A DNA stretch of 34,200 nt from the IMG/VR virus record IMGVR_UViG_3300036832_001210, positions 1 through 34,200 of that record; one strand, given 5' to 3'. This document shows, piece by piece, positions 1 through 32,749 of the stretch. Every line of letters starts with the position of its first letter. Within the stretch, counting starts at the first letter, position 1. The notes beneath the pieces are model-generated. The model was not told the DNA's origin. It ran no database searches and was given only the letters and a program-made list of their open reading frames with translations. This stretch comes from a virus. A program made the position numbers and the translations under genes.

Positions 1-32
1 CAGCCTCCATCAAGACTACGGTGCGCCTTCAT
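1..32 (-). CDS. 5' fragment of an unidentified gene, cut by the left window edge
   Basis: An ATG at 30-32 shares its T with the TGA stop of the next gene (TGATG overlap), the junction style used throughout this phage. Only ten codons are inside the window, beginning MKAHRSLDGG. It is the next gene in the leftward transcription unit. Nothing can be said about function. Confidence 0.4.
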   Translation of the reverse strand, partial: MKAHRSLDGG

Positions 33-223
33 CAAACTCGTGACCTCTTATTACTTTGCTTATCAAGGCACTTGGCAAAAGCATATAATGGATAAAGCGC
101 AGCCCCATCCTCGTCCGTTTCAAAAATCCCGTTTTCGTCTACCACAACATGAAGCGGTTTGACGCCGTCCTGTGTAAACTTATGATAACCGGGCGAAGTT
201 TTTTCATACATTTGCCAACGCAT
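32..223 (-). CDS. Small hypothetical phage protein (63 aa)
   Basis: A 63-aa hydrophilic, soluble-looking protein with no signal peptide or membrane segment. The start is well supported: a GAGGAG Shine-Dalgarno sequence lies 8 nt before the ATG and overlaps the stop region of the preceding spike-like gene. The middle contains a DENGIFETDEDG stretch rich in acidic residues. It follows the beta-helix gene by 12 nt and is clearly co-transcribed. I do not recognise a family. Its position directly after a tail-spike-like gene would fit a small chaperone or accessory protein, but that is only inference from context. Confidence 0.6.
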   Translation of the reverse strand: MRWQMYEKTSPGYHKFTQDGVKPLHVVVDENGIFETDEDGAALYPLYAFAKCLDKQSNKRSRV

Positions 224-235
224 TCAGATACTCCT

Positions 236-2461
236 CTAAGGTGCAACCACGCCTTGATTCATAATAAACTCGGCTGACATTATCCACGGTTGATCTACCG
301 GCGACGATGCCATTTGCGGAGCAGCATTAGCCCCAAAGAATGCAGCGGGGTCAGGCAGTGTCAAACTGCTATCCGCTCCACAACCGCCGGGAATAGGGCC
401 GCCACCAGTGTCGCAGGTTACGCCCGATGGCGTAATAGTCCTCAGCCCTGCAGTACGAAGATCAATGAATGCAGAATAGAATGATGTCGTCCCCGCTGGA
501 ACAACGGTGTTTTCAACCATGTTGAATTTAAGAGGATTGGTCGATCCCGTATAGGCTTGAGTCACGTTGAATTTGATACTGGTGACTGTTCCGAAAACAA
601 GATGTTGATCTAGCGAACTGCTATTTGTGTATGTCCGCTTTGAATAGGAATACATCGGAGTGTTAGGAGGGGCGCCCGCAAAATCAACCGCGTCCACAAC
701 ACCTGTACATCCCGAGCAGGTCCATTTCGGTTGCTGGACAAGAAGATTTGCCTTGCCGCTGGTAAGCGGCATGGTTGGAAATCCACCCGGCATCGTTGTT
801 GCAATATGGGTGCCGGCAGAATCTTGTGTTACACCCGTGACTTGAAACGCCGGCATTTGAGCATTAAGAATGCCGTGCCAAAATAGATTTGTGCCGGGTA
901 CGGCCCATCTGTATGAGTTGTTCTGAAGTTGACCAGCCCCGGTATAGACTGAGCCACTAAAGGTCGTACCCTGAAGATCGATATGGGTGCTATCGACCAC
1001 AGTAATGACATATACCGCATTCGAATTAGGGCCGCTGGAAAATACATTGCTTACAGCTGTAAGCACGTTGTTATTCCAGCCTGTAGTATTAGGCGATACG
1101 GTGAGGCGAACGAGCCCAGAGCCATTGTTTGCAATGGCTGTGACATTGACAAAATCCGGAGCGCTCATCACGCCACCGCTAAAATTGAAATAATTATTAA
1201 CCCCCGCGCCAAGTTGATCTTCGACAAAGCCCGTTCCAGAAACGCCTACTGTTATTTTACAATTTGTACAGGTCGTAGAATCACCACGACCATAGGCTAT
1301 CGGACCAACTGTGAAGCTAGTGAGCGTTGAATTGTAAATGTTAGCGACCTTCGGCGTGCCATTAATGTTCATTGCAGAATTGGAAACTATCATACGATTT
1401 ACCGACGAACTCTGGGTCGTGATCCGAAATGCGGTCACAGAGTTCAATGTGTAGCTATCGATAATTTTATCGACTTCGATATCGCAATTGGTCATCACCG
1501 CATTGATGATAGTGAAACTGCCGTTTTGTGAAGGAATAAGGCAGTTCGCTCCAGTAACGGTTATATCTCGAAAGATTGCAGAGCGCCCAGCGCCACCAGT
1601 TTGATTATTGACTTGATCGATTGTGATGCCCCGAATGTCGAGTTGACTATCCCAAGATGGATCAAGTGCGTAGATAGTTGCCGGGCCTCCGGGATCAGCC
1701 TCGACAGCATCCCCTGAATTGTAATTCGGCCATGTTGATAAGTAGGTGTTGGTGAGAGCAGACCCCAACGCGATCTGCCCCGTTGTTGCACAATTCGATG
1801 TAGACGAAATTTGGACGTAATCGAAATAATGCGGGTTAGGAGGAAATCCATAGGGAGAGTTGAACTGCGATTGAAGATCGAATCCTGTCACCACAGCCCA
1901 TCGGCCGGCGATAAAACGAGAACATTTTGTCGTGTCCAGAACAGTGACAGATGTTGCTCCCGAGGAAACTGTCGCAATTCTTGCACTGCATCCGCTTGGA
2001 TCGGAAAGTCCCTTATGACAGATACCTAAGCCACCAAATTGAAAACTGGCTCCGGTGGATAGGTTGTTATTCGAAAGCGTAGCTCCATAGCCCATCAAGC
2101 GAAGATTCTTCACCCCATTGGCAAAATTTGTGCTGTTCGTACCCGTAATGAACATGCACTTTCCACTGACGCGCAACTCAATCAATTGAGCATTGGTGTT
2201 GGTCGTGGTGGCTTTGGCCCAAGTGTTAAAGGCTTGAAAGGCAGGCGTATCATCGGCAACGCCGTTACAGGTAGCCGCTGGACTGGCGCATGTTCCTGCA
2301 TCCAATCCGGTCGCAACTCCGGTATTGATATTGCAAGTCGTGGTTGCCGCTGGTGTACTGACTCCTCGCGTCCACGCCCCACAAAGACGAGGTGGAGACA
2401 AGGCCAAAAGTATCATGATCAGTATCCGCATTTCCATTACGCCACCACCACCACTTGCCAT
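236..2461 (-). CDS. Exported tail-spike-like / right-handed beta-helix protein
   Basis: About 741 aa. Near the N-terminus is a hydrophobic signal-like segment (MEMRILIMILLALSPP, then a likely cleavage after CGA). This is followed by CNGVADDTPAFQAFNTWA, the 'DG-aDDT-Ai-A' opening typical of pectate-lyase-fold phage tail spikes. Asn/Thr/Gly-rich repeats follow through the body, as expected of a beta-helix, and the C-terminal 200 residues look like a separate beta-rich domain. Such proteins bind or depolymerise surface polysaccharide. The ATG at 2461 sits directly after the upstream stop; an internal ATG at 2437 (MEMRIL) puts the signal peptide at the true N-terminus and may be the real start. 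The oddity is the export signal, because ordinary tail spikes are assembled in the cytoplasm. No catalytic residues can be assigned by eye. Confidence 0.7.
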   Translation of the reverse strand: MASGGGGVMEMRILIMILLALSPPRLCGAWTRGVSTPAATTTCNINTGVATGLDAGTCASPAATCNGVADDTPAFQAFNTWAKATTTNTNAQLIELRVSGKCMFITGTNSTNFANGVKNLRLMGYGATLSNNNLSTGASFQFGGLGICHKGLSDPSGCSARIATVSSGATSVTVLDTTKCSRFIAGRWAVVTGFDLQSQFNSPYGFPPNPHYFDYVQISSTSNCATTGQIALGSALTNTYLSTWPNYNSGDAVEADPGGPATIYALDPSWDSQLDIRGITIDQVNNQTGGAGRSAIFRDITVTGANCLIPSQNGSFTIINAVMTNCDIEVDKIIDSYTLNSVTAFRITTQSSSVNRMIVSNSAMNINGTPKVANIYNSTLTSFTVGPIAYGRGDSTTCTNCKITVGVSGTGFVEDQLGAGVNNYFNFSGGVMSAPDFVNVTAIANNGSGLVRLTVSPNTTGWNNNVLTAVSNVFSSGPNSNAVYVITVVDSTHIDLQGTTFSGSVYTGAGQLQNNSYRWAVPGTNLFWHGILNAQMPAFQVTGVTQDSAGTHIATTMPGGFPTMPLTSGKANLLVQQPKWTCSGCTGVVDAVDFAGAPPNTPMYSYSKRTYTNSSSLDQHLVFGTVTSIKFNVTQAYTGSTNPLKFNMVENTVVPAGTTSFYSAFIDLRTAGLRTITPSGVTCDTGGGPIPGGCGADSSLTLPDPAAFFGANAAPQMASSPVDQPWIMSAEFIMNQGVVAP

Positions 2462-3223
2462 TCATGAGACCTTGAATGATCCCATTTTAACCGACCAGCC
2501 GCTTGACCCGCTAAGTGTCCAAGTCGGATTAGCTGCCGCTGCGGAAGTCTGGATCAGATAGGCCAAGCCGCCGCCCATATTATTTCCGGAAGAAGCCGTA
2601 TGAGTAACATCGACAATGGTAAAGCCACCACTGACGGATGATGCACCAATCGTATCTGCATCGTTGCCGACGAATGTTATTACAAGTTCACTGCCGACCG
2701 ATGGTGTGATGCTGGTTGACGCGGCGGAAGAACCACTGGCTCCGTTGTTCTCGCTTTGCTGATCTGCAGGCGAAGCAGCGCCCCCCGAAAAAGCTGCAAA
2801 TGTTTGAGCCGTATATATGCTGGTTCCAGTCAGGGAGGCGGTATGGCCGGTGCCGACACTGGTGGGAACAGAATAATAAACGATACATTTAGCGTTTCCG
2901 CCACCCGCGGTAGCGGTCAGCGAGTTCCAGCTATTTCCCTTGCTGTCGGAAATGGTTAAGCCGGACCCTCCGGTGTAGTAGGACACCCCAAGGATAAGAA
3001 GCCCAGCCCCGGTAGTGTTTATTGCGTTGCTGTTCCCTCCATTGGCTCCGATGGGTACGTTCGTCGAGCCTGCAAGAAACGAAAACGTGCCGCCACCGCC
3101 GCCAGATGCGGGTTTGCCGAGCCCGGCGCCAGTCATCGGCACCTGTGCACGAACAATGGCAGGTGCAGCCACTGTTAATCCACCGGCAATAAACAATCTG
3201 CGACTTGGCCGAATAATCTTCAT
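2462..3223 (-). CDS. Exported beta-rich, Gly/Ser-rich protein with twin-arginine-like signal
   Basis: A 253-aa protein. The N-terminus MKIIRPSRRLFIAGG, followed by a hydrophobic stretch and AxA-type site (IVRAQ), looks like a Tat signal (S-R-R-x-F). The mature part is Gly/Ser/Thr-rich with alternating hydrophobic strands and no cysteine-rich motif, the composition of a jelly-roll or adhesin-like structural domain. It lies between two other exported proteins in a tight leftward operon, and its stop is followed immediately by the ATG of the spike-like gene. No strong Shine-Dalgarno sequence is visible before its ATG. Role unknown; a virion decoration or surface-exposed adhesin is a guess from composition. 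Confidence 0.65.
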   Translation of the reverse strand: MKIIRPSRRLFIAGGLTVAAPAIVRAQVPMTGAGLGKPASGGGGGTFSFLAGSTNVPIGANGGNSNAINTTGAGLLILGVSYYTGGSGLTISDSKGNSWNSLTATAGGGNAKCIVYYSVPTSVGTGHTASLTGTSIYTAQTFAAFSGGAASPADQQSENNGASGSSAASTSITPSVGSELVITFVGNDADTIGASSVSGGFTIVDVTHTASSGNNMGGGLAYLIQTSAAAANPTWTLSGSSGWSVKMGSFKVS

Positions 3224-3229
3224 GCTAGA

Positions 3230-3958
3230 TCACTGCTGGACATACGTTATGTTTCCGGCAAGCGCCGTCGTGCCGGACTGGATCAAGCAAAGACCGTGGC
3301 CCGCGGTGGTGGTCCGAGCTACGGATGCGCCGCCATTACCGAAGGTGAGACCGCCATTAGCGGCAAGGGACATACCATTAGCCGCTGTGGTGCTGCCAAT
3401 CGCGGCAACGGGCGTGCCAGTAGTACAGGTCGCGCCGGTACCACCCACAAGATTGATGGTGGCAGCAGCAGCAGCGATCACCGAGAACGAACAGACATAA
3501 ACCTGCAGAACACCGGACGGCGCAACGAGTTGCGTGTTGCCAGCTGAGTTTCCGAACGCGATATTAACCTTGGTCGCTTGCGTGCAAGGGTCGTTGCTGG
3601 TGAAGCCGATAACGAAAGTACCAGCCGGGATCGGCGCGCCGGTATTGGTCGCAATAGTTGCGAGAGACGCGATTTCAGTGGATTGATTTGCGGAGGTAGC
3701 GCCTCCCGTGGGCACCGTGGCCATCGATACCGGCTGGGTCGTGGTCCCCGTTGGATCAATCCGTAACGGAGCGCCAGCAGTGCCAACAGCCGCGCCGGTC
3801 GAATCAACCAGCGACGAAATCGGCACGCAGACAACACTTGTGCAGACATTCGGATTCTTGAACGTGATCGTGGCGCCCGTGGCATCCTTGCCGCTCCAGT
3901 CAGCAAGGGCCGGTGATGCCGCGCAGACAACTGCTAGAAGAACGAGAATCTTGCGCAT
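3230..3958 (-). CDS. Exported hypothetical protein, phage fibre-like
   Basis: A 242-aa protein with a standard Sec signal peptide (MRKILVLLAVVCAASPALA, then DWSG). It has Cys pairs at CTSVVC and downstream, and long Ala/Thr/Gly-rich segments of the kind found in phage fibres and neck-attached proteins. The motif GKDATGATITFKN near the mature N-terminus and GAPLRIDPTG further on recall small tail-fibre-associated phage proteins I have seen without assigned function. A good Shine-Dalgarno (AAGGAGGG) precedes the ATG. It belongs to the block of consecutive exported proteins. Function unknown. Confidence 0.65.
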   Translation of the reverse strand: MRKILVLLAVVCAASPALADWSGKDATGATITFKNPNVCTSVVCVPISSLVDSTGAAVGTAGAPLRIDPTGTTTQPVSMATVPTGGATSANQSTEIASLATIATNTGAPIPAGTFVIGFTSNDPCTQATKVNIAFGNSAGNTQLVAPSGVLQVYVCSFSVIAAAAATINLVGGTGATCTTGTPVAAIGSTTAANGMSLAANGGLTFGNGGASVARTTTAGHGLCLIQSGTTALAGNITYVQQ

Positions 3959-3969
3959 TGTGACCCTCC

Positions 3970-4164
3970 TTATGGCATCACCGCAGCGGTAATTGCGACA
4001 TTGCTACAAACCGAGAAATCCATCTGACCAGTCGGGTTTCCCGGCGAGCACGCTGGAGGTACCGCCTTCATCCCCGGCCCGGGAAAAAATGTGATGCCCA
4101 TCTGCGCGTCGGCGGCCCCGGCAAATAGGCTCATAACCGCGGCAATAATAACCAGCATCCTCAT
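3970..4164 (-). CDS. Small exported protein (64 aa)
   Basis: A 64-aa protein with a signal peptide (MRMLVIIAAVMSLFAGAADA, cleavage before QMG). The mature part is only about 44 residues, with two cysteines (PPACSPG and FSVCSN) that could form a disulfide after export. The start codon overlaps the stop of the upstream gene as ATGA, implying translational coupling. No recognisable family. Confidence 0.6.
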   Translation of the reverse strand: MRMLVIIAAVMSLFAGAADAQMGITFFPGPGMKAVPPACSPGNPTGQMDFSVCSNVAITAAVMP

Positions 4165-4940
4165 CGCACCACCCTCCAGTTCAGGGTGATGGCACCCGGC
4201 GTAATAGAGCTTGACGTATTGTTGCAGACTCTGAAGTTGACGTTGCCCGCAGTCGGATAGCCGATAATCGTCAGCATGCCCGTGGTCAAAGGAATATAGC
4301 CAGTGACCGCAGTTGGGTCGCTATTGAAAGACGCCGTTACGACGTCGGTGGTGGCGACGTTAGTCGCGACGACCGTCACTGCCGCCGCACAGGCGGCCGA
4401 AGCGATTGCTCCAGTGCCGAGCACTGCCGTCCCGCCGGCAATAGTCGAAGTCACACCGCCGGCAGCGGACAGTGTAGTACCGAGCGCTGTCGCCACCCCG
4501 GTACCGAGACCGGATATGCCGGCAACCGGCAAGCCGGTGGCGTTGGTGAGGGTGCCGGACGATGGGGTGCCAAGTACACCACCATTGACAACAAACGCAC
4601 CAGCGGTGCCCGTATTGACGCCCAGAGCCGTTGCAACGCCGGTCCCCGGGACGACCGTAGCCAGCCCACCGAACGTCACACCACCGGTCTTGGTACACGT
4701 CACTGCGCCGACACCAGTAGCCGTGCAGTCGCTGCTCATCAGGCCATAGACGTAGGCCGCCACCTGCGTCGCCGTACACTTGCGATCGAGCGTACCTCCA
4801 GTCTGGGCGCAGTACAGCAGATCAGTGCCGGCAAGAGCACCGCCGGCAGTCATGGATGGGACCGAAGTATCCACCGCCAAAGCCGGCGACACCAACCCGA
4901 GTAAGCCGAGGAGCAATGCTCCAGTCAGAAGACGACGCAT
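4161..4940 (-). CDS. Exported tail-fibre-like repeat protein
   Basis: A 259-aa protein, with start chosen at the ATG preceded by AGGAGGG at 7 nt and overlapping the upstream stop (TGATG). The signal peptide is MRRLLTGALLLGLLGLVSPALA. The central part contains GTPSSGTLTNATGLP and repeated GTGVATALG units, the hallmark low-complexity repeats of phage side-fibre proteins. Near the start are LLYCAQTGG and a CTATQVAAYV segment, also seen in phage fibre proteins. The fibre resemblance is from pattern memory and the export signal is seen directly. Possibly a trimeric fibre exposed on virions or displayed on the host surface. Confidence 0.65.
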   Translation of the reverse strand: MRRLLTGALLLGLLGLVSPALAVDTSVPSMTAGGALAGTDLLYCAQTGGTLDRKCTATQVAAYVYGLMSSDCTATGVGAVTCTKTGGVTFGGLATVVPGTGVATALGVNTGTAGAFVVNGGVLGTPSSGTLTNATGLPVAGISGLGTGVATALGTTLSAAGGVTSTIAGGTAVLGTGAIASAACAAAVTVVATNVATTDVVTASFNSDPTAVTGYIPLTTGMLTIIGYPTAGNVNFRVCNNTSSSITPGAITLNWRVVR

Positions 4941-5158
4941 CAGCACCCTCCTGCCCTGCAAATTTTGCTCACACCGTCGACCATCAGAATGTGGGAGGTG
5001 CCGTCAACCATCAGGATTTTGCCGGTGGGTTGCGGGATGACGATACCCTTGCCGCCCAGCCCGCCCAGCTGGCCCAGCGTACCCAGCTTGCCGAGCTTTG
5101 CATGAACTCCGACAACCGACAGGGAAATCAGGATGATCACTATGATGGCCCGTTTCAT
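4940..5158 (-). CDS. Small exported Gly/Leu-rich peptide (72 aa)
   Basis: A 72-aa protein with signal sequence MKRAIIVIILISLSVVGVHA. The mature chain begins with a K-L-G-x-L-G repeat (KLGKLGTLGQLGGLGGKG), followed by a near-duplicate unit KILMVDGTSH / ILMVDGVSK and ending CRAGGC. The ATG overlaps the preceding stop as ATGA. The internal repeat and terminal cysteines suggest a small folded, perhaps disulfide-bonded, exported peptide. No known family. Confidence 0.55.
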   Translation of the reverse strand: MKRAIIVIILISLSVVGVHAKLGKLGTLGQLGGLGGKGIVIPQPTGKILMVDGTSHILMVDGVSKICRAGGC

Positions 5159-5511
5159 GGACCTGTCACCACCGAGACCTTATTGCCAGAGACCACTCCG
5201 AAATATTCGACCGTCGCGGCCGACATCGGCATATTGGTGCCGACCACCGCGGTGGGATTGGCACCGAACACGATGGTGCATTGGATGTCGCACCACATCC
5301 GCACAAAGCGCGTGCTGCCAGCAAAGGCTGCTGATTGCGTGGCGCCAGCGGTAAAGTCAACCACCTGATCAACCTGCCCCGGTTCCTTGGCAATCTGCGG
5401 CGTATCACCTTGCGCCTGAGTGCCGAGCGCGGAATATTCCCTGATGTACAGCTTCGATGCGAAGGCGTCCGTCGTCAGCATGGCGAGGACCAGAGCGAGA
5501 ATCATCCTCAT
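5155..5511 (-). CDS. Exported small virion-like protein (118 aa)
   Basis: A 118-aa protein with signal peptide MRMILALVLAMLTTDAFA. The C-terminal half (TRFVRMWCDIQCTIVFG, TNMPMSAATVEYFGV, GNKVSVV) matches the pattern of small beta-sandwich phage structural proteins, where a cytoplasmic version usually reads as 'IRI-D-C-v-fG-nPtA...EYFgV-pGdkvsVi'. Here that domain is joined to an export signal, which is unusual. A strong Shine-Dalgarno (GGGAAGGGG) precedes the ATG. This is the first gene of the exported block when read in the direction of transcription. Family resemblance is from memory and unverified. Confidence 0.6.
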   Translation of the reverse strand: MRMILALVLAMLTTDAFASKLYIREYSALGTQAQGDTPQIAKEPGQVDQVVDFTAGATQSAAFAGSTRFVRMWCDIQCTIVFGANPTAVVGTNMPMSAATVEYFGVVSGNKVSVVTGP

Positions 5512-12302: not shown

Positions 12303-12665
12303 TCAGGGGGTGACGTTGGTGAAACCAATTCCGACGCCCGCACCAACATTGGTGCTGTTGCCGGCAGTGATTGCCGCACCGTTGCCGATGCTGAACGCAC
12401 CGGAAGCGGAGTTGCTCTGGCCGGCACTTGCGCCGACACCAGCCGACAGACCACCGGCCGGAGTGGCAACGGCAAAGCCGGAGCCGAGGCTGGTGTTGTG
12501 GCCGGTCGCCACGCTTCCCGCCGCCGCCGTACCCGCAGTGAGCGAGCCAGCGTTGGTGGTCACATGGCCGAAATTAAACCCCGTTCCGACCGCGAGGGTG
12601 CTATCGGCTTGCGCCGAGAACGCCGTCAATGCCAAGATCGAGGCACTTAGCAACAGTTTCTTCAT
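12303..12665 (-). CDS. Exported Gly/Ala-rich protein (120 aa)
   Basis: Signal peptide MKKLLLSASILALTAFSAQA, cleavage before DSTL. The mature part is a repetitive Gly/Ala/Ser/Thr/Asn chain (ASGAFSIGNGAAITAGN, GAGVGIGF) with the alternating pattern of a beta-solenoid or adhesin-like surface protein. A Shine-Dalgarno (AGAGGAG) precedes the ATG. It follows the larger exported protein at 12734-13546 and is expressed within the early region, away from the virion genes. This suggests modification of the infected cell's envelope rather than a virion part, but that is inference. Confidence 0.65.
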   Translation of the reverse strand: MKKLLLSASILALTAFSAQADSTLAVGTGFNFGHVTTNAGSLTAGTAAAGSVATGHNTSLGSGFAVATPAGGLSAGVGASAGQSNSASGAFSIGNGAAITAGNSTNVGAGVGIGFTNVTP

Positions 12666-12694
12666 TCCGTACTCCTCTTAAGCTGCCCAGAAAC

Positions 12695-12727
12695 CACGCC
12701 CGCACGCGGCAGCATCGTCCGGGCGTG
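12695..12727 (-). promoter_or_regulatory. Hairpin in the gap between two exported-protein genes
   Basis: An 8-bp perfect stem CACGCCCG / CGGGCGTG closes a 17-nt loop. It lies between the stop at 12734 and the ATG at 12665. No U-run follows, so it is more likely a translation- or stability-related structure than an intrinsic terminator. Confidence 0.45.
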
Positions 12728-12733
12728 TCCGAA

Positions 12734-13546
12734 TCACTGATTGCTGCCCGCATCCACCGAGGCTGCCTTCGCGCCGTCCGCGGGCGGCGGGTCGACCTTC
12801 AGTCTGGTCGGCACCGGCTTTGGCTTCGACGACGTGACATGCGCCGTCACCACCTTCACCGATCGCTCACCAGCCCATCGCACGCAGTGCTGGGCCGCCG
12901 CGTCATAGTCGTTGCAGAGGTGCTCGCGCTGATTACGGCCGTCGACCAGCATGACAGGAACGTGCCTGCCAGTCGGTTCGGCAGACGCGAACGTGCTGAT
13001 GGGCGGACCAGCGAGCGGCGCCGGATAGCCATAGCCAACCGGTGCCACCACAGGCACGTATTGCACGCAGACCTCTGGCATCGCTCTTGCGATGTCGGGG
13101 TTGAGGCACAGACGCGCGACGGCAGCCTTCTTGAGGCCCATGCTCCATAAGGTTCTGGCATCGAGCCGTGCGGCGCAGCCGGGGTCAGGGACGGTCGTTC
13201 CAAAACTGAGACCGGTGCCCACGAAAGACCCACCGCCGGAAACGCTCCCAAGACACGTCTCCAATCCGGCCGCGGCGAGCCCGGGCGAGAAAACACTCGG
13301 GACGTTGCGGATGGTAGAGGTGCCTGTCTGATTGATGGTCTGGACGGCGGGAGTGCCGGCGACATTCACCGTGGCGGACGGATTACCGCCAGTGCCGCCC
13401 TGCCCAGAGATGGCAACAGCCTTGGAAGACGAGGCCGAGCTCGAATTGGCAATGCCGGTGCCAACCCCTATTGCCGTGTTGTCACCTGCGATCGCAGGCA
13501 CAGTTGTAACCACCGCGAGAATCGCGGCTAGCGTAATCCTGTTCAT
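12734..13546 (-). CDS. Exported protein with conserved double-cysteine core (270 aa)
   Basis: Start at MNRITLAAILAVVTTVPAIA (ATG 13544-13546) behind AGGGGAA; the signal peptide ends before GDNT. A Ser/Gly-rich linker is followed by LETCLGSVSGGGSFVGTGLS, then TVPDPGCAARLDARTLWSMG, RLCLNPDIARAMPEVCVQY and a proline-rich C-terminus with HLCNDYDAAAQHCVRWAG. The 'CLGS..G.....G.g.S.G.T..D..C..RLDAR.L..MG...aA..RLC.....r.AMP.vC' core is one I have seen in secreted proteins of phages of Gram-negative bacteria, without known function. Several Cys pairs could form disulfides in the periplasm. An envelope-acting role (exclusion, lysis aid, receptor masking) is possible but unproven. Confidence 0.65.
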   Translation of the reverse strand: MNRITLAAILAVVTTVPAIAGDNTAIGVGTGIANSSSASSSKAVAISGQGGTGGNPSATVNVAGTPAVQTINQTGTSTIRNVPSVFSPGLAAAGLETCLGSVSGGGSFVGTGLSFGTTVPDPGCAARLDARTLWSMGLKKAAVARLCLNPDIARAMPEVCVQYVPVVAPVGYGYPAPLAGPPISTFASAEPTGRHVPVMLVDGRNQREHLCNDYDAAAQHCVRWAGERSVKVVTAHVTSSKPKPVPTRLKVDPPPADGAKAASVDAGSNQ

Positions 13547-13580
13547 TTTGATAAGTTCCCCTGTGTTAAACCGGTTGAAG

Positions 13581-13840
13581 TTAGCGGCGGTCGGGAGGAC
13601 TAGTCCCGGCCGCCGCTTTTGCGGGTGTTGTTTCCGACCGCCGACACCGCCCGCTGGTCGACGTCGCAGCCTGACGCTCTCGCTCGATAGCGGCGCCACC
13701 CCTGCGCTGGGCTAGCCCCGAATCATTAAAAAGCCTCGACGCAAACACTCTCATGCCGCATGTGTCACAGTAAAGAGGCCGCGTGCCATGATTAATATTT
13801 TCGGAAAGAGTGTGGCATTTAGGCCAGTGTGAATGCTCAT
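13581..13840 (-). pseudogene. Possible frameshifted zinc-ribbon gene
   Basis: The ATG at 13838-13840 follows AGAGCATCAC, the phage's standard leader, but its own frame gives only 29 codons (MSIHTGLNATLFPKILIM...). In the neighbouring frame, the same DNA reads HSHWPKCHTLSENINHGTRP followed by LYCDTCGMRVFASRL, a plausible H/C-x-C ... C-x2-C zinc ribbon that runs to a stop at 13581. The ribbon frame has no start codon between promoter and motif. A one-base shift just after codon 4 would join leader and ribbon. It may be a pseudogene, a sequencing error, or recoding. Confidence 0.35.
13583..13617 (+). terminator. Strong hairpin with T-run on the plus strand
   Basis: A 14-bp stem (13583-13596 pairing with 13604-13617, one wobble) has a 7-nt loop and is followed by TTT on the plus strand. 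It looks like an intrinsic terminator facing rightward, opposite to the genes here. On the leftward transcript it is simply a very stable hairpin in the leader of the 270-aa gene. Confidence 0.45.
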
Positions 13841-13857
13841 GTGATGCTCTGATTCGT

Positions 13858-13898
13858 TTGTAGCCGTGGTCACGATATCGTGTCAATAGAAAGTTGAC
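13858..13898 (-). promoter_or_regulatory. Promoter with overlapping operator (copy D)
   Basis: Dyad GTCAAT-AGAAA-GTTGAC at 13882-13898 (one mismatch). Leftward -35 TTGACA (13881-13886), 17 bp, -10 CTACAA (13858-13863). There is no CGAGCC hairpin here; the leader AGAGCATCAC-ATG begins about 8 nt after the -10. Confidence 0.55.
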
Positions 13899-13930
13899 CC
13901 TCCCGGTGGCGAGACCGGAAGGGTCGAAGG

Positions 13931-14062
13931 TCAGTAACAGTAGGTATTGCAGACACGCTGACTGCCGTAGGTGTTACAGGTCGTATTGCAGTATCCGGCC
14001 TTGGCCGGAATCGCTGTGGCCAACAGCGACAGCGCAGCGATCGCGAAAATAAACGCCTTCAT
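13931..14062 (-). CDS. Exported cysteine-rich micropeptide (43 aa)
   Basis: A 43-aa protein with signal peptide MKAFIFAIAALSLLATAIPAKA and a mature peptide of about 21 residues, GYCNTTCNTYGSQRVCNTYC plus Y. It has four cysteines arranged as two C-N-T-x-C units, suggesting two disulfides once in the periplasm. GGAGG lies upstream (GGAGGAACAG-ATG). Its leader carries GNRA-hairpin copy 2. Too short for the usual gene finders, but signal peptide, ribosome-binding site and cysteine symmetry argue for a real product. Function unknown; envelope-active toxin-like or exclusion peptides are possibilities. Confidence 0.6.
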   Translation of the reverse strand: MKAFIFAIAALSLLATAIPAKAGYCNTTCNTYGSQRVCNTYCY

Positions 14063-27632: not shown

Positions 27633-28033
27633 CCGAGCGGGTGCCGCTGCCGGCCGATCTCGTCAGCATCATCAAGGCCATCATCAATCAGGACAGGCGC
27701 GAACGCCGGGCTGCCGGATTTAGATACCAGTCGCGGCATCTGGCGGACCGCCTCGCCGAGCATTTCGGATTGAGCATCCATACCCTGCGATCAATCAAGG
27801 AACGCAAGCGACGCCGCCACGTCTGGGCGCTCGATAGGTTCCGCGGCCTGACTGTCGCCCCAGAGCGTCTGGCAGCCATCAGGATGCGTTTGGAGCGTAG
27901 GCGCTATCTTGCAGCCCGGAAGACTGGAATCGCATCCAGCGAGGCTCCGCCGACCGGGAAACAGCCTGCTACCTCAGAAGCACCGCTGGAATCTGGATTG
28001 GATACTGGACCAGCACCTCGTCGTCGGTCTTGA
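27629..28033 (+). CDS. Basic HTH-like protein, last gene of the rightward operon (134 aa)
   Basis: Start MTERVPLPADLVSIIKAIIN overlaps the previous stop (ATGA). FRYQSRHLADRLAEHFGLSI, then HTLRSIKERKRRRHVWALDR, resembles a helix-turn-helix followed by a basic wing, so DNA binding is likely. The C-terminal 30 residues are Pro/Ser/Gly-rich, and its last 65 bp overlap the 3' end of the convergent endolysin gene. No terminator is seen at this junction. It could be a late-gene activator given its place at the end of the early operon and next to late genes, but no evidence shows this. Confidence 0.5.
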   Translation: MTERVPLPADLVSIIKAIINQDRRERRAAGFRYQSRHLADRLAEHFGLSIHTLRSIKERKRRRHVWALDRFRGLTVAPERLAAIRMRLERRRYLAARKTGIASSEAPPTGKQPATSEAPLESGLDTGPAPRRRS

Positions 28034-28919
28034 TGCCAAGTGCGTCCAAGAGGCCGGGCGACAGGTCGGCGACACGGTCGGTATCATCGTGTGGCCCCCA
28101 GTCCGCCGGCCACGCCAGAACCCTCCGGCCCGTCTTCGGCGCCTTGACCAGCGCCATCTTGTCGGCATCATCGAGCATGGTTTTCGGGGTGACCGCATAG
28201 TCCCAGCGGCAGGCGACGTAGTACATGGCAGGGTCGAGCCGGCGCGCCAGACCGGTAGTGCCCGGCGGCTGCTGATCGAGAAACAGATGCGGCGCCTGAT
28301 CATAGTTGTAGATGAAGGCCAGCCCCTCGTCCTCGCTGACACCCATATCGTCCGGACCGCCAAACCAGCTGCACTTGCCAGAGAAACTTACGCCCTCGGC
28401 CACGTCCGTCTGCAGCCCGACCATTGCGATCGCCTTGCAGATTGCCTCGAAATTGTTCTGATAGGCCTCGACGTCGGCCTCAGAGTCCACGAAGCAAATT
28501 TCCAGCAATATGCTCGGTTCGTCGGTACCGTTCAGGAATGCCAAATTCGTCTTGTACTTTGCTCCGCGATTGATCAAGCCGCCAGCTTTCGCGATCGCCG
28601 CCGACACACGCGACGCCAGACCTTCCTGCGTCAGGTAGAGCACTTCAGTCCCGACCGGCTCATCAGTCTGCTCATAGGCGTTGAAATGCACCGAGACGTC
28701 AACATCACGGTCCTGCGCATTGTGGAAATTTATGATGGTGTCGAGATTCTCGCTCTGGGTCTGCGAGGTATCGTCGTAGAACTCGAGCACGTTATGCCCG
28801 ACCTTGCGCAACCAGTCGGCAACGGCCGGCACCACTTTTCTCGCCTCTTCGACCTCATCGATGATGCCGGAGGCACCCCTGATCAGCAGCCCATGGCCTG
28901 CCGAGATCACGATTCTCAT
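27969..28919 (-). CDS. Endolysin: zinc N-acetylmuramoyl-L-alanine amidase (316 aa)
   Basis: The N-terminal 170 aa are an Amidase_3-type domain: MRIVISAGHG with zinc ligand H9, an acidic DEVEEA with E22 or E24 as second ligand, VDVSVHFNA with H78, and SILLEICFVDS with catalytic E140. The remaining 140 aa (QTDVAEGVSFSGKCSWFGGP, MALVKAPKTG, LSPGLLDALGIKTDDEVLVQ) do not match a usual peptidoglycan-binding domain. They contain a segment resembling phage 'structural lysozyme' tails and may bind another wall component. A good GGAG precedes the ATG. It cuts the amide bond between MurNAc and the peptide stem during lysis. Confidence 0.85.
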   Translation of the reverse strand: MRIVISAGHGLLIRGASGIIDEVEEARKVVPAVADWLRKVGHNVLEFYDDTSQTQSENLDTIINFHNAQDRDVDVSVHFNAYEQTDEPVGTEVLYLTQEGLASRVSAAIAKAGGLINRGAKYKTNLAFLNGTDEPSILLEICFVDSEADVEAYQNNFEAICKAIAMVGLQTDVAEGVSFSGKCSWFGGPDDMGVSEDEGLAFIYNYDQAPHLFLDQQPPGTTGLARRLDPAMYYVACRWDYAVTPKTMLDDADKMALVKAPKTGRRVLAWPADWGPHDDTDRVADLSPGLLDALGIKTDDEVLVQYPIQIPAVLLR

Positions 28920-28937: not shown

Positions 28938-30161
28938 TTATGAGCTGCAAAATTCTACGATGCTGACGACACCAACAGCGCCGTTTCCACCAGAAGCACC
29001 AGTTGTTGCAATAGCAAATGATATGCCGCCATTTCCTCCAGCCCCATAGCCATTGCCGTTGCTGCCGTTGGCATTGCCCGCGCCCCCAAGACTGAGAGCA
29101 GTACCCTGCCCGCCCCAAGGACCGGCACCGCCCTGTGCTTGGACAACATTTGAGTTAAGATTGGAGTTCTGCAAAGGACCAGCCCGTCCGCCATTTCCCG
29201 CGTCAACGATATCACCAGTGCCAACGCTCACGTTAATTCCGCCAGCACCGCCGCCACCTCCACCCCCAAGGGCTCCTCCTTTGGCGATACAAAGCGTACC
29301 GACAGAGCTATCGCCACCAGCCGTTCCGTTGTTAGCGGCTCCTGCCGCGCCGCCATTTCCCCCAGCACCCACTGTGACGGTCTGAGATGCGCCAATAATA
29401 GCCGCTGAAGCAAGTAGCCGCGCATAACCACCTGCAGCACCGCTGCCTGCTCCCAAACCATTACCTGTTCCAGAAGCAGCTACCCCTCCACCGCCTCCAC
29501 CGCCGCCCACACATTCGATGGTGCAGTAGATCATATTGGCGGTTGGCGTGTATGTTGCCGTTCCGCTGGTGAATATCTGTTTGTGAACACTCTTCACCGT
29601 GCCCGCTTCGGCAGCCTGAGCACGCGTTTTTTCTACACCGACAGCTCCGTCAGCATAAGCCGTAGTTGCGAGCTGCGTCGTGTTGTTGAGCGCAGCTGCC
29701 GTGGGTGCCGCTGGGATACCCGTGAACGTCGGCGAAGCCAGTAATGCATAGCCGCTGATGCTGGCACCCACCGGAATCGTCACAGTGCCCGTGAACGTCG
29801 GAGATGCTAACGGCGCCTTGAGGGCAAGAGCCGTATTAACGGCGCCTGAGAGTGTCGAGACGGCGCTGTCAGCATATGCCGTAGTTGCAATCTGTGTGCT
29901 GTTGTTGAGTGCTGCAGCTGTCGGTGCTGTCGGAATGCCGTTGAAGGTTGCGGTGCCGTTGAAGGCTGCCGGACCGTTGAAGGTTGCGGTGCCGGTGAAG
30001 GTCGGCGAGTTCGACGGAGCCCACGCGGTATCGACAGGATGGATGTGATCTTCGTGAGCCCATCTAATGCTGGCACCAACGGTCGCATTGCCGTTCGCTA
30101 AAGGCGGCAGGATGCCCGGCTCACCCGGAGTTGGAAACAGTTCAGTTTCAACAATCGGCAT
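28938..30161 (-). CDS. Glycine-rich tail fibre / receptor-binding protein (407 aa)
   Basis: Start at MPIVETELFPTPGEPGIL (ATG 30159-30161), overlapping the previous gene by 14 nt. The N-terminal 45 residues include RWAHEDHIHP, the 'hub' motif common in phage side-fibre starts. Then come SPTFTGTATFNGPAAFNG-type repeats and two copies of IPTAPTAAALNN-type units, ending with a long Gly-rich domain (QIFTSGTATYTPTANMI, then GGGGGG-type runs and GAGGNGG blocks). Gly-rich polyproline-II-like domains form the receptor-binding tips of T4 gp38- and S16-type adhesins. It very likely determines host attachment. Neighbours: endolysin downstream, small proteins upstream. Confidence 0.75.
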   Translation of the reverse strand: MPIVETELFPTPGEPGILPPLANGNATVGASIRWAHEDHIHPVDTAWAPSNSPTFTGTATFNGPAAFNGTATFNGIPTAPTAAALNNSTQIATTAYADSAVSTLSGAVNTALALKAPLASPTFTGTVTIPVGASISGYALLASPTFTGIPAAPTAAALNNTTQLATTAYADGAVGVEKTRAQAAEAGTVKSVHKQIFTSGTATYTPTANMIYCTIECVGGGGGGGGVAASGTGNGLGAGSGAAGGYARLLASAAIIGASQTVTVGAGGNGGAAGAANNGTAGGDSSVGTLCIAKGGALGGGGGGGAGGINVSVGTGDIVDAGNGGRAGPLQNSNLNSNVVQAQGGAGPWGGQGTALSLGGAGNANGSNGNGYGAGGNGGISFAIATTGASGGNGAVGVVSIVEFCSS

Positions 30162-30574: not shown

Positions 30575-31678
30575 TTACAGCACCCTCAGAAGATAGGTCA
30601 CAGCAATGTTTGGCGGCACTTTGGGAACTGCCGCTGGCGAGGCATTTGTAAAGGTCGTACTGATCGAATTGCTGGCACTGGAGGTAAACGCACCAACAAC
30701 GGGAGACGATATAACAGTAAAAGATGAACCCGACCCGACAAAGTCCGTGGCAGTGCCGCTTGCGGTAACGGCACCTGCGGGCGAAGTAACACTGATCGAC
30801 TGCGTAGCGTTGCTAGACGTGTGTGTCGGAAGGTTAGTACTTCCGAGCGTGACGCTTTCGAGGCCATTGACACAACTATTGCCGACCACTGTCATCACAG
30901 TGCCGCAGCCGGTCGCGGCACTGGTTAGACGGTTTATGGGAGTGCCGCCGAGGTTGTCGAGCGCCACCAGCGTGCGCCCGCGCAGATCGAGCACCGCAAA
31001 ATTGCCGGCCGAGCAGCCACCGGGAGCTGGCGAACCGAGCACGGCCCAATAGGCCGCATAGGTCGTGGTGGAAATGCACTGACCGGCAGGAAGGATATAA
31101 CTTGGACTTGGAGAAGTAGTGCCGGTATAGGGTATGAGACCTCCGAGCGGCACCAATGACGGATAGTTGTAGAAGTTGCGCAGTACCCAAGCGCTGCTTC
31201 CCAAACTGAACTTCATCGAATATGGCACGCCTGCAACCAGCGTTCCGGATGGAATTGCGCCAGTCGAACCCTGAATGGCATAGGCAGTGCCGGCATCTGT
31301 CGACAGTGTCGGGTTGGTGCCGTTCGTCACGTTCAGCGTGACCGAGATCAGCTGGCCGTCATTTGGTGTCGGAGTCGGAAAGCCCTGATTGGTCGTAACC
31401 GTATAAGCGACCGGACCGCCTGCCGTCGTCAATGAACCGGAGGTGTCAGCAGCCTGCTCGGCCAGCCGCGCCATCATCGCGCGCGCGCTGTCGTTCACCG
31501 CCGATGGCGACATGCCCTCCGACCAGTTGATCGACGCATCAGCCGTCGCATTGTTGGTGGCGGTCTTGCTCCACTGCCAGAATGCCGCCTTCGCCGTCTC
31601 AATGCTGACCTGAGCTCCGAGTGCCGCTACGAAAAACAGGACGGTAAGGCCGACGAAGTTGAGTATTCGCTTCTTCAT
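30575..31678 (-). CDS. Tail-collar-domain fibre protein with N-terminal signal-like segment (367 aa)
   Basis: After an N-terminal hydrophobic segment (MKKRILNFVGLTVLFFVAAL, then an AKAA site), the sequence FWQWSKTATNNATADASINW and EGMSPSAVNDSARAMMARLA is the well-known opening of tail proteins of alphaproteobacterial phages. The C-terminal part has GGLIPYTG and FAVLDLRGRTLVALDNLGG, the collar-domain signature of short tail fibres, and ends in a beta-rich YLLRVL. The signal-like N-terminus on an otherwise standard fibre is unusual and parallels the exported block at the left end. The start overlaps the upstream gene stop. It is likely part of the adsorption apparatus. Confidence 0.75.
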   Translation of the reverse strand: MKKRILNFVGLTVLFFVAALGAQVSIETAKAAFWQWSKTATNNATADASINWSEGMSPSAVNDSARAMMARLAEQAADTSGSLTTAGGPVAYTVTTNQGFPTPTPNDGQLISVTLNVTNGTNPTLSTDAGTAYAIQGSTGAIPSGTLVAGVPYSMKFSLGSSAWVLRNFYNYPSLVPLGGLIPYTGTTSPSPSYILPAGQCISTTTYAAYWAVLGSPAPGGCSAGNFAVLDLRGRTLVALDNLGGTPINRLTSAATGCGTVMTVVGNSCVNGLESVTLGSTNLPTHTSSNATQSISVTSPAGAVTASGTATDFVGSGSSFTVISSPVVGAFTSSASNSISTTFTNASPAAVPKVPPNIAVTYLLRVL

Positions 31679-32583
31679 GGCGTTGTCCCCGTAGCGGGAG
31701 GCTGAGTTTGATTGGTGAGCGGCTGATTGATCATCGCTTGCGCGTACTGTCTCGCGCGCAGCATCGCTGGCGTCACTGCTGACGGAAATTGTATTGGCTG
31801 CAGTGGCGGAGGTGCGTTCGCCTGCTGCTGTGTCTGAAGCATCTTCGCGATGCCTGCCAGTGCATTCGTCGAATCACCATCACCCGTACTCGGTGTCACG
31901 GCTGATGCCTGTGTGGTCGATGTGCCAGCTGGTCCGGCAACGGCACCGCCAGAACCGCCGCCCCCGCCTCCATCTCCGCCTCCACTGGTACCCGCCACGC
32001 TCGGAGCATTAGGGTCATAGGGAAGCCCGGCGCGGCGCGCGATCTCACGACCCCATCCTGCTTCGAACGATTGCGGTGTCTGCGGCCCGCTCATGCCGGG
32101 ATAGGGATTGCCGCCGACATTGGTCATGGTGCCATTCTGATAGAAGCCACGACCCTGCTGATGCATCATGTAGGTCTCGGTCGGTGTTGGAGCGCGGCCA
32201 TACTTGTTTTGGAACCATGAATTGTTGTCTGCTGCCAGATTGGCGGCAGCCTGCGCGTTGTCCATGGCGTTGTAGATGTTGCCGGAGCCGTGGGTCGCCC
32301 ACTCCGAGCCGGCGCCGCGTGAGCCGATTTGATACAGCCCCTTGTATTGCGTCGACCGGTTGGCGTTGCTTCCCGGATTAAGGCTGCTCTCGATTTGTGC
32401 GATCGCCCTCCAAGTCGGGACATCCATCCCGGCCTTGCCGGCAGTGGCTCGAATGGCGGCGTCGACATCACCGGCCGAGGGAGCCGCCGTATTGCCGCCA
32501 GACTGACGGCTCACAACAGCTGCCGCGGCTTCCGGAGAGTAGCCCTGCGCAACCAATTGCCGTATCTGACTCAGAGCATCCAT
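31675..32583 (-). CDS. Virion-type lytic transglycosylase (302 aa)
   Basis: The N-terminal MDALSQIRQLVAQGYSPEAA is followed by an SLT domain: RAIAQIESSLNPGSNANRST with catalytic E65, YKGLYQIG with the typical 'GLyQi' strand, NAQAAANLAADN, ETYMMHQQG. From about residue 195 the protein becomes Gly/Ser/Thr- and then Gln/Pro-rich and disordered, ending LTNQTQPPATG. Such proteins ride inside the virion and open the peptidoglycan during DNA entry. Its start codon forms a CATG with a possible rightward ATG. Sits next to the large virion protein, as in podovirus-like internal-protein clusters. Confidence 0.8.
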   Translation of the reverse strand: MDALSQIRQLVAQGYSPEAAAAVVSRQSGGNTAAPSAGDVDAAIRATAGKAGMDVPTWRAIAQIESSLNPGSNANRSTQYKGLYQIGSRGAGSEWATHGSGNIYNAMDNAQAAANLAADNNSWFQNKYGRAPTPTETYMMHQQGRGFYQNGTMTNVGGNPYPGMSGPQTPQSFEAGWGREIARRAGLPYDPNAPSVAGTSGGGDGGGGGGSGGAVAGPAGTSTTQASAVTPSTGDGDSTNALAGIAKMLQTQQQANAPPPLQPIQFPSAVTPAMLRARQYAQAMINQPLTNQTQPPATGTTP

Positions 32584-32749
32584 GCGTCAAGCCCTCTTCT
32601 TCGTCATCCTCATCCTCGGCATCACCCTGATGCATATCTGGCATCATTTCGTGACTTATTTTGTCACGACCTTCGGCAACGTGGCTGGCCTCACCGCAAT
32701 CGCCGGTCTCATCCTTCTCGGTTTTGTCCTTGACCCCTATTGCGATTAA
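32582..32749 (+). CDS. Possible rightward two-helix membrane protein (55 aa)
   Basis: A plus-strand frame MRQALFFVILILGITLMHIW, then a loop and GLTAIAGLILLGFVLDPYCD: two predicted transmembrane helices. Its start shares a CATG with the transglycosylase start and its stop overlaps the stop of the next leftward gene. No good ribosome-binding site is visible and it opposes all neighbours, so it may be a shadow of an acidic leftward reading. I list it because it fills the only gap of this region and has clear membrane topology. Confidence 0.3.
   Translation: MRQALFFVILILGITLMHIWHHFVTYFVTTFGNVAGLTAIAGLILLGFVLDPYCD

Follow-up and report, generated by a model that had tools for sequence, protein, structure and literature searches.

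A leader-bearing tail fibre and a cassette of putatively exported proteins in an apparently virulent lineage of uncultivated tailed phages

The window analysed here, i.e. the complete IMG/VR virus record IMGVR_UViG_3300036832_001210 (a linear sequence of 34,200 bases that is probably a fragment), encodes eleven proteins with predicted signal peptides, among them a tail fibre (30575; genes are designated by their first coordinate, Table 1) and a block of seven consecutive genes (236-5511). Export is the simplest reading of the leaders, the cysteines and their conservation, and is considered very probable. As a whole explanation, we marginally favour adhesins that are exported by the host and form disulfides in the periplasm, with the fibre joining virions at lysis; sequence support for it comes from the architecture and placement of the signals, the joint gain of cysteines, the conservation of the cassette and the absence of integrase genes. 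That a virulent lineage of tailed phages makes its receptor-binding appendages outside the cytoplasm, perhaps together with surface proteins encoded beside the capsid gene (Sec/Tat export, periplasmic oxidation, mounting at lysis), is put forward more tentatively, at a little under even chances. Judging by homologues, the exported-fibre trait is common to a lineage of uncultivated phages and not unique to the window.

The first-pass annotation had listed seven consecutive signal-bearing genes at 236-5511, six Sec-like and one twin-arginine (Tat)-like, and at least eleven exported products in the window. Scores, motif and positions agree with this, and eleven products were counted (the seven block proteins, the early-region proteins 12303, 12734 and 13931, and the fibre 30575). 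All seven open reading frames (ORFs) of the block are present on the minus strand, in a tight series with a neighbour spacing of -22 to +11 nucleotides. Leaders were scored with a home-made scorer of n-, h- and c-regions and AXA ends, which gives 11.4-14 for known Escherichia coli Sec substrates, <2 for LacI and DnaK, and 12.2-16.6 for the seven block proteins. The Sec-type leaders show a positive n-region, a hydrophobic h-region and an AXA-like c-region, and inspection of 2462 revealed the Tat motif SRRLFIAGG before a moderate h-region. Inspection of the eleven leaders revealed no lipobox, their ends being AXA-like. Because shuffled N-termini pass the scorer in 2.5% of genes, the probability of at least eleven such genes among 51 is about 5e-8. 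When run on annotated gene sets, the scorer additionally picks up some membrane proteins and the cytoplasmic protein BioD (10.5); as it is home-made, the main support for export is evolutionary.

A scan of viral contigs for homologues of fibre 30575 returned 80 loci with 72 distinct sequences (73 with the window). A leader is present in 12 of the 73 and absent from 61, and the 12 leader-bearing homologues form one clade (SH-aLRT 99). All 12 contain 4-6 cysteines in total, whereas the leader-less fibres mostly contain 0-1 and a few 2-4 (Fisher 7e-13 for at least four cysteines against leader, related sequences being treated as independent). Cysteine occupies position 201 in 12/12 leader-bearing fibres, 222 in 11/12, 258 in 12/12 and 269 in 11/11 (one gap), and none of these four sites in any of the 61 leader-less fibres, which mostly show Ala (201), Asp (222) and a gap (269). 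Furthermore, the leader immediately precedes residues 32-80, which form the conserved N-terminal domain of the fibre, the predicted mature protein starting with AFWQWS, and leader-less relatives begin M-A-F-W-S-W-S or similar; cleavage would therefore leave a nearly ancestral N-terminus. This domain (phrog_30879) is the best-conserved part of the protein both with and without a leader (pairwise identity 0.69 and 0.73). An internal start for a cytoplasmic form of the fibre was considered and rejected: no start backed by a Shine-Dalgarno sequence lies between leader and fibre domain, and the ribosome site of an in-domain ATG (EGM) found in most fibres is not conserved.

Cysteines were also counted in other families. 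In the fibre-2 family (query G008_48), seven leader-bearing proteins contain 1.45 cysteines per 100 amino acids (aa) versus 0.24 in 52 leader-less ones, and in the 4161 family the values are 1.12 with and 0.33 without leader. Protein 5155 has a C74/C78 pair, of which its leader-less orthologues (starting MAKLYV or MALLYV) carry the second cysteine alone; 5155 has gained a partner for an ancestral lone cysteine. In a capsid-adjacent family (G008_60), proteins contain 0 or 2 cysteines with a leader and 0 to 7 without. The cysteine number is even in 57 of 64 cysteine-containing leader-bearing proteins (p 4e-11; proteins with a second membrane segment or a lipobox excluded) and in 23 of 29 after clustering at 30%; it is even in 41% of the non-signal proteins of the same phages. 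In a wider set of 342 viral loci, even numbers occur in 62 of 77 leader-bearing clusters versus 37% of 595 (p 3e-8), both p-values ignoring remaining kinship. This parity thus matches the expectation for disulfide bonding in an oxidising compartment, the periplasm. The same counts bear on the alternative that the leaders stay uncleaved and serve as membrane anchors or as peptides for assembly, the proteins remaining with the virion or the membrane. A home-made predictor that also flags some inner-membrane proteins would leave room for it; however, the leaders have an n-h-c structure whose AXA-like ends directly adjoin the mature domain, several families show cysteine gain and even parity tracking the leader, and the parity counts left out proteins with a further membrane segment. 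We consider this alternative improbable.

Records of 18 phages were compared, the fibre being leader-bearing in nine and leader-less in the other nine. The share of leader-bearing genes per genome is 6-18% in the phages with an exported fibre and 0-2.5% in eight leader-less, integrase-carrying relatives; the ninth leader-less-fibre phage (G017) has 6% leader-bearing genes, other exported proteins and no integrase. The window cassette is collinear with the all-signal cassette of G006 and partly with G008, G010 and L162, the protein bodies being variable. By gene, (i) the homologue of 4940 (G006_64) occupies the equivalent position in the relative's cassette, (ii) 4161 has an exported homologue (G006_63) and a signal-less one without cysteines at the aligned positions (G018_56), (iii) small exported proteins (G006_62; L162:6228-6422) resemble 3970, (iv) 3230 has homologues with a signal (G006_61; G010_78), (v) an N-terminus related to that of 2462 is found in L243, on the same contig as L162, and (vi) 236 has exported homologues in G008_25 (52%), G010_80 (44%) and G006_59 (30%). 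Scans with the 5155 protein as query returned nothing, and with 2462 one contig; no close DNA relatives were found among phage isolates. Further Tat-type leaders occur in small proteins near the cassettes, with the motifs SRRSFLKG (G008_33, L187:19262-19795) and SRRFFMKL (L162:2141-2392). G008 encodes a major capsid protein (phrog_334, PF13252), a portal protein (phrog_156) and, beside the capsid gene, two leader-bearing genes that also occur in relatives. These two (G008_60 and G008_61; L189:965-1438 and 1499-1873) and their orthologues share 37-69% identity where the capsid proteins are 98-99% identical; a test for faster divergence of exported proteins relative to other orthologues was not significant. 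Giant leader-less fibres were also observed (G001_28, 1651 aa; G005_46, 2392 aa; L176, L180-L181), and G005_46 contains domains related to exported 3230 and to G008_27, with just 2 cysteines overall.

Integrase genes are present in 0 of 10 leader-bearing phages and in 8 of 9 leader-less-fibre relatives (seven above the curated cut-off; Fisher 1e-4), a contrast confounded by kinship and incomplete records. Neither integrase (PF00589) nor resolvase (PF00239) was found in the ten signal-bearing phages, of which five exceed 60 kb and the window is a fragment. The leader-bearing lineage apparently consists of virulent soil phages. A clear leader is absent from the 80 homologues in bacterial genomes (mostly of Bradyrhizobium and Bartonella), with borderline scores in two (L324, a Hyphomicrobiales metagenome-assembled genome, and L380). 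Since these homologues come mostly from the two genera named, the host is probably a member of the Hyphomicrobiales. Distant leader-less fibre homologues, some multicopy, also occur in Bartonella, Mesorhizobium and Rhizobium genomes (L366-L403). It could be argued that the cassette serves lysogenic conversion and alters the lysogen surface, like lambda lom and bor, all the more as lom lies in the tail-fibre region and carries an export signal. Against this stand the distribution of integrase and resolvase genes and the bacterial homologues without clear signal; carriage by a temperate phage was not found, larger relatives also lacking integrase, and lysogenic conversion is highly unlikely.

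As to destination, 30575 is assigned by homology, location in the virion module and copy number to the tail fibres of tailed phages. Over 91% of its length it aligns, at 35% identity, with the fibre annotated in Bradyrhizobium phage ppBeUSDA76-2, and it matches phrog_30879 and phrog_9116. In 27 records each genome has a single copy of the gene, which belongs to the virion gene module, adjoins transglycosylase and DNA-ejection genes, and occupies the virion-operon slot that the signal-less fibre has in relatives. The first-pass annotation had spoken of a phage-encoded secretome. Its export component is upheld by leaders, cysteine gain and parity, and conservation in relatives, but the implied destination may be wrong, because the fibre keeps its N-terminal domain, is single-copy and fills a virion-operon slot. 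In the main rival reading, the exported proteins are no virion parts but act in the envelope or extracellularly: receptor masking from within, superinfection exclusion, keeping progeny off debris, or cutting of surface polysaccharide by spike 236. In its favour, the exported block is separate from the fibre slot and some of its small proteins have no obvious virion role, some exported genes sit in the early region (12303-14062), and virulent phages are known to export exclusion proteins (T5 Llp). Yet the strongly conserved domain, single copy and slot of fibre 30575 speak for the virion, and the window leaders show no lipobox; these envelope roles, taken jointly, are plausible but less likely than attachment to virions.

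The same three features of the fibre suggest that the exported proteins become virion parts, with mounting after export and most likely at lysis. In this preferred scheme, host Sec would carry the proteins over the inner membrane (Tat for 2462), signal peptidase would remove the leader, giving fibre 30575 an N-terminus close to that of its signal-less relatives, and the mature proteins would form disulfides in the periplasm. As the lytic cycle proceeds, folded fibres and spikes would then build up in the envelope, to be mounted on virions once the lysis proteins open the cell. Leader processing, disulfide pairing, and virion attachment and its timing are what we infer from the comparisons above. 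Searches returned no phage-borne gene for a Thioredoxin_4/DsbA-like protein or a signal peptidase, and host machinery is therefore assumed.

Several points weigh against this scheme. The signal predictor is home-made. The co-occurrence of signal and cysteines in the 30575 family is a single evolutionary event, since the leader was gained once, and the p-values count kin sequences as independent. The capsid-adjacent family differs in parity only and not in cysteine density, and the Tat protein 2462 has one cysteine and 12303 none. Attachment after lysis would be argued by analogy: in vitro, tailspikes can be added to P22 and fibres to T4. Finally, no paper describing the export of tail fibres by a tailed phage was found in the open-access literature, which is at the same time weak evidence of novelty.

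The features of the window are listed in Table 1. Start codons were corrected for 4161 (ATG 4940 behind AGGAGG, not TTG 4961) and 12734 (internal ATG 13546), and the signal of 236 begins at the internal ATG 2431 (score 12.1 versus 9.8 at 2461). The ten window proteins scanned had no match in Pfam and, among them, PHROG matches were obtained for 12734 and 30575 only. Protein 236 is proposed to be a beta-helix; its structure model is beta-rich with low confidence (4 alignment rows; predicted local distance difference test, pLDDT, 41), and the fibre prediction (11 rows, pLDDT 46) is, like that of the spike, too poor for Cys-Cys distances. Sequence searches of the PDB gave nothing usable. The G+C content is 48-50% over spike gene 236 (window 1-3000) versus 53-64% elsewhere, which resembles a recently acquired receptor-binding gene. 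The exported early-region proteins (12303-14062) are alanine/glycine-rich with homologues in G001, G003 and G005, those of 12734 being exported in all three. The second fibre, 28938, shares an operon with fibre 30575 yet lacks a leader. A small ORF with a membrane segment (32582-32749, plus strand) lies antisense between structural genes and has a counterpart in G003. Promoter and terminator scans of the window cassette gave only weak consensus matches.

Table 1. Predicted features of the window (Cys, cysteine; SP, signal peptide)
Feature	Coordinates	Strand	Details
Small putatively exported protein, 118 aa	5155..5511	-	SP MRMILALVLAMLTTDAFA followed by SKLYIREY, score 14
Putatively exported 72-aa protein	4940..5158	-	SP MKRAIIVIILISLSVVGVHA, score 16.1
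Putatively exported fibre-like protein, 6 Cys	4161..4940	-	LGTPSSGTLTNATGLP repeat; SP MRRLLTGALLLGLLGLVSPALA
Putatively exported 64-aa protein, one Cys pair	3970..4164	-	SP MRMLVIIAAVMSLFAGAADA
Putatively exported 242-aa protein, 6 Cys	3230..3958	-	SP MRKILVLLAVVCAASPALA followed by DWSGK
Putative Tat-type exported protein, 253 aa, 1 Cys	2462..3223	-	RPSRRLFIAGGLTVAAPAIVRAQ
Putatively exported spike-like protein, 731 aa from ATG 2431, ~16 Cys	236..2431	-	
Putatively exported early-region protein, no Cys	12303..12665	-	SP MKKLLLSASILALTAFSAQA; exported homologue G001_54
Putatively exported early-region protein	12734..13546	-	SP MNRITLAAILAVVTTVPAIAG; phrog_20531
Small putatively exported protein	13931..14062	-	SP MKAFIFAIAALSLLATAIPAKA; start corrected to internal ATG 14062
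Tail fibre with predicted signal peptide	30575..31678	-	Cys 201/222/258/269; collar-like C-terminal half
Predicted fibre signal peptide, residues 1-31	31586..31678	-	MKKRILNFVGLTVLFFVAALGAQVSIETAKA
Second tail fibre, signal-less	28938..30161	-	Tail-fibre PHROGs, Gly_rich_2; SP score 2.7
Lytic transglycosylase adjoining fibre, likely virion-associated	31675..32583	-	No signal
N-acetylmuramoyl-L-alanine amidase, likely endolysin	27969..28919	-	PF01520, 2.4e-22

Tailed phages are assumed to assemble in the cytoplasm, whose reducing conditions are believed to preclude fibres stabilised by disulfides, and receptor-binding parts built outside the cytoplasm have no place in textbook tailed-phage assembly. 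If the scheme holds, part of tailed-virion assembly would take place in another compartment, and fibres, spikes and small proteins routed through Sec or Tat would widen the range of possible receptor-binding proteins. Infection would be tied to host secretion and the Dsb machinery, and completion of virions during lysis would become testable. A leader together with even cysteines could serve as a simple sequence signature for finding such systems in viromes. The target proteins of phage diversity-generating retroelements (DGR) are stated to lack signal peptides (PMC6199706).

The statement that the exported proteins have no obvious counterpart in well-studied tailed phages holds insofar as no report of an exported tail fibre was found in the open-access literature, but partial counterparts exist in lambda Lom, Bor and Rz1 and in filamentous phage pIII. 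Lom, Bor and Rz1 are likewise phage-encoded exported proteins; however, they are single envelope proteins of lysogens or lysis, neither fibres nor part of a cassette. Llp of T5, a small exported lipoprotein of a virulent phage, is the model for an envelope role, but no lipobox occurs in the window proteins, several of which resemble fibres. The pIII protein of filamentous phages (M13, fd) is an adsorption protein with a cleavable Sec signal and periplasmic disulfides, features that the preferred scheme would give the window proteins too. However, pIII has a membrane anchor and is mounted as the virion is extruded, whereas the phages considered here are tailed and encode an endolysin. Pfam and PHROG scans of the window proteins gave no match to filamentous-phage proteins. 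The signal-less fibres of Bradyrhizobium prophages and related phages (e.g. ppBeUSDA76-2) differ from the window fibre in having no signal and no cysteine at the four positions and in occurring mostly with an integrase, but they share with it the N-terminal domain phrog_30879, the collar-like C-terminal half, the same place in the virion gene order and a similar length.

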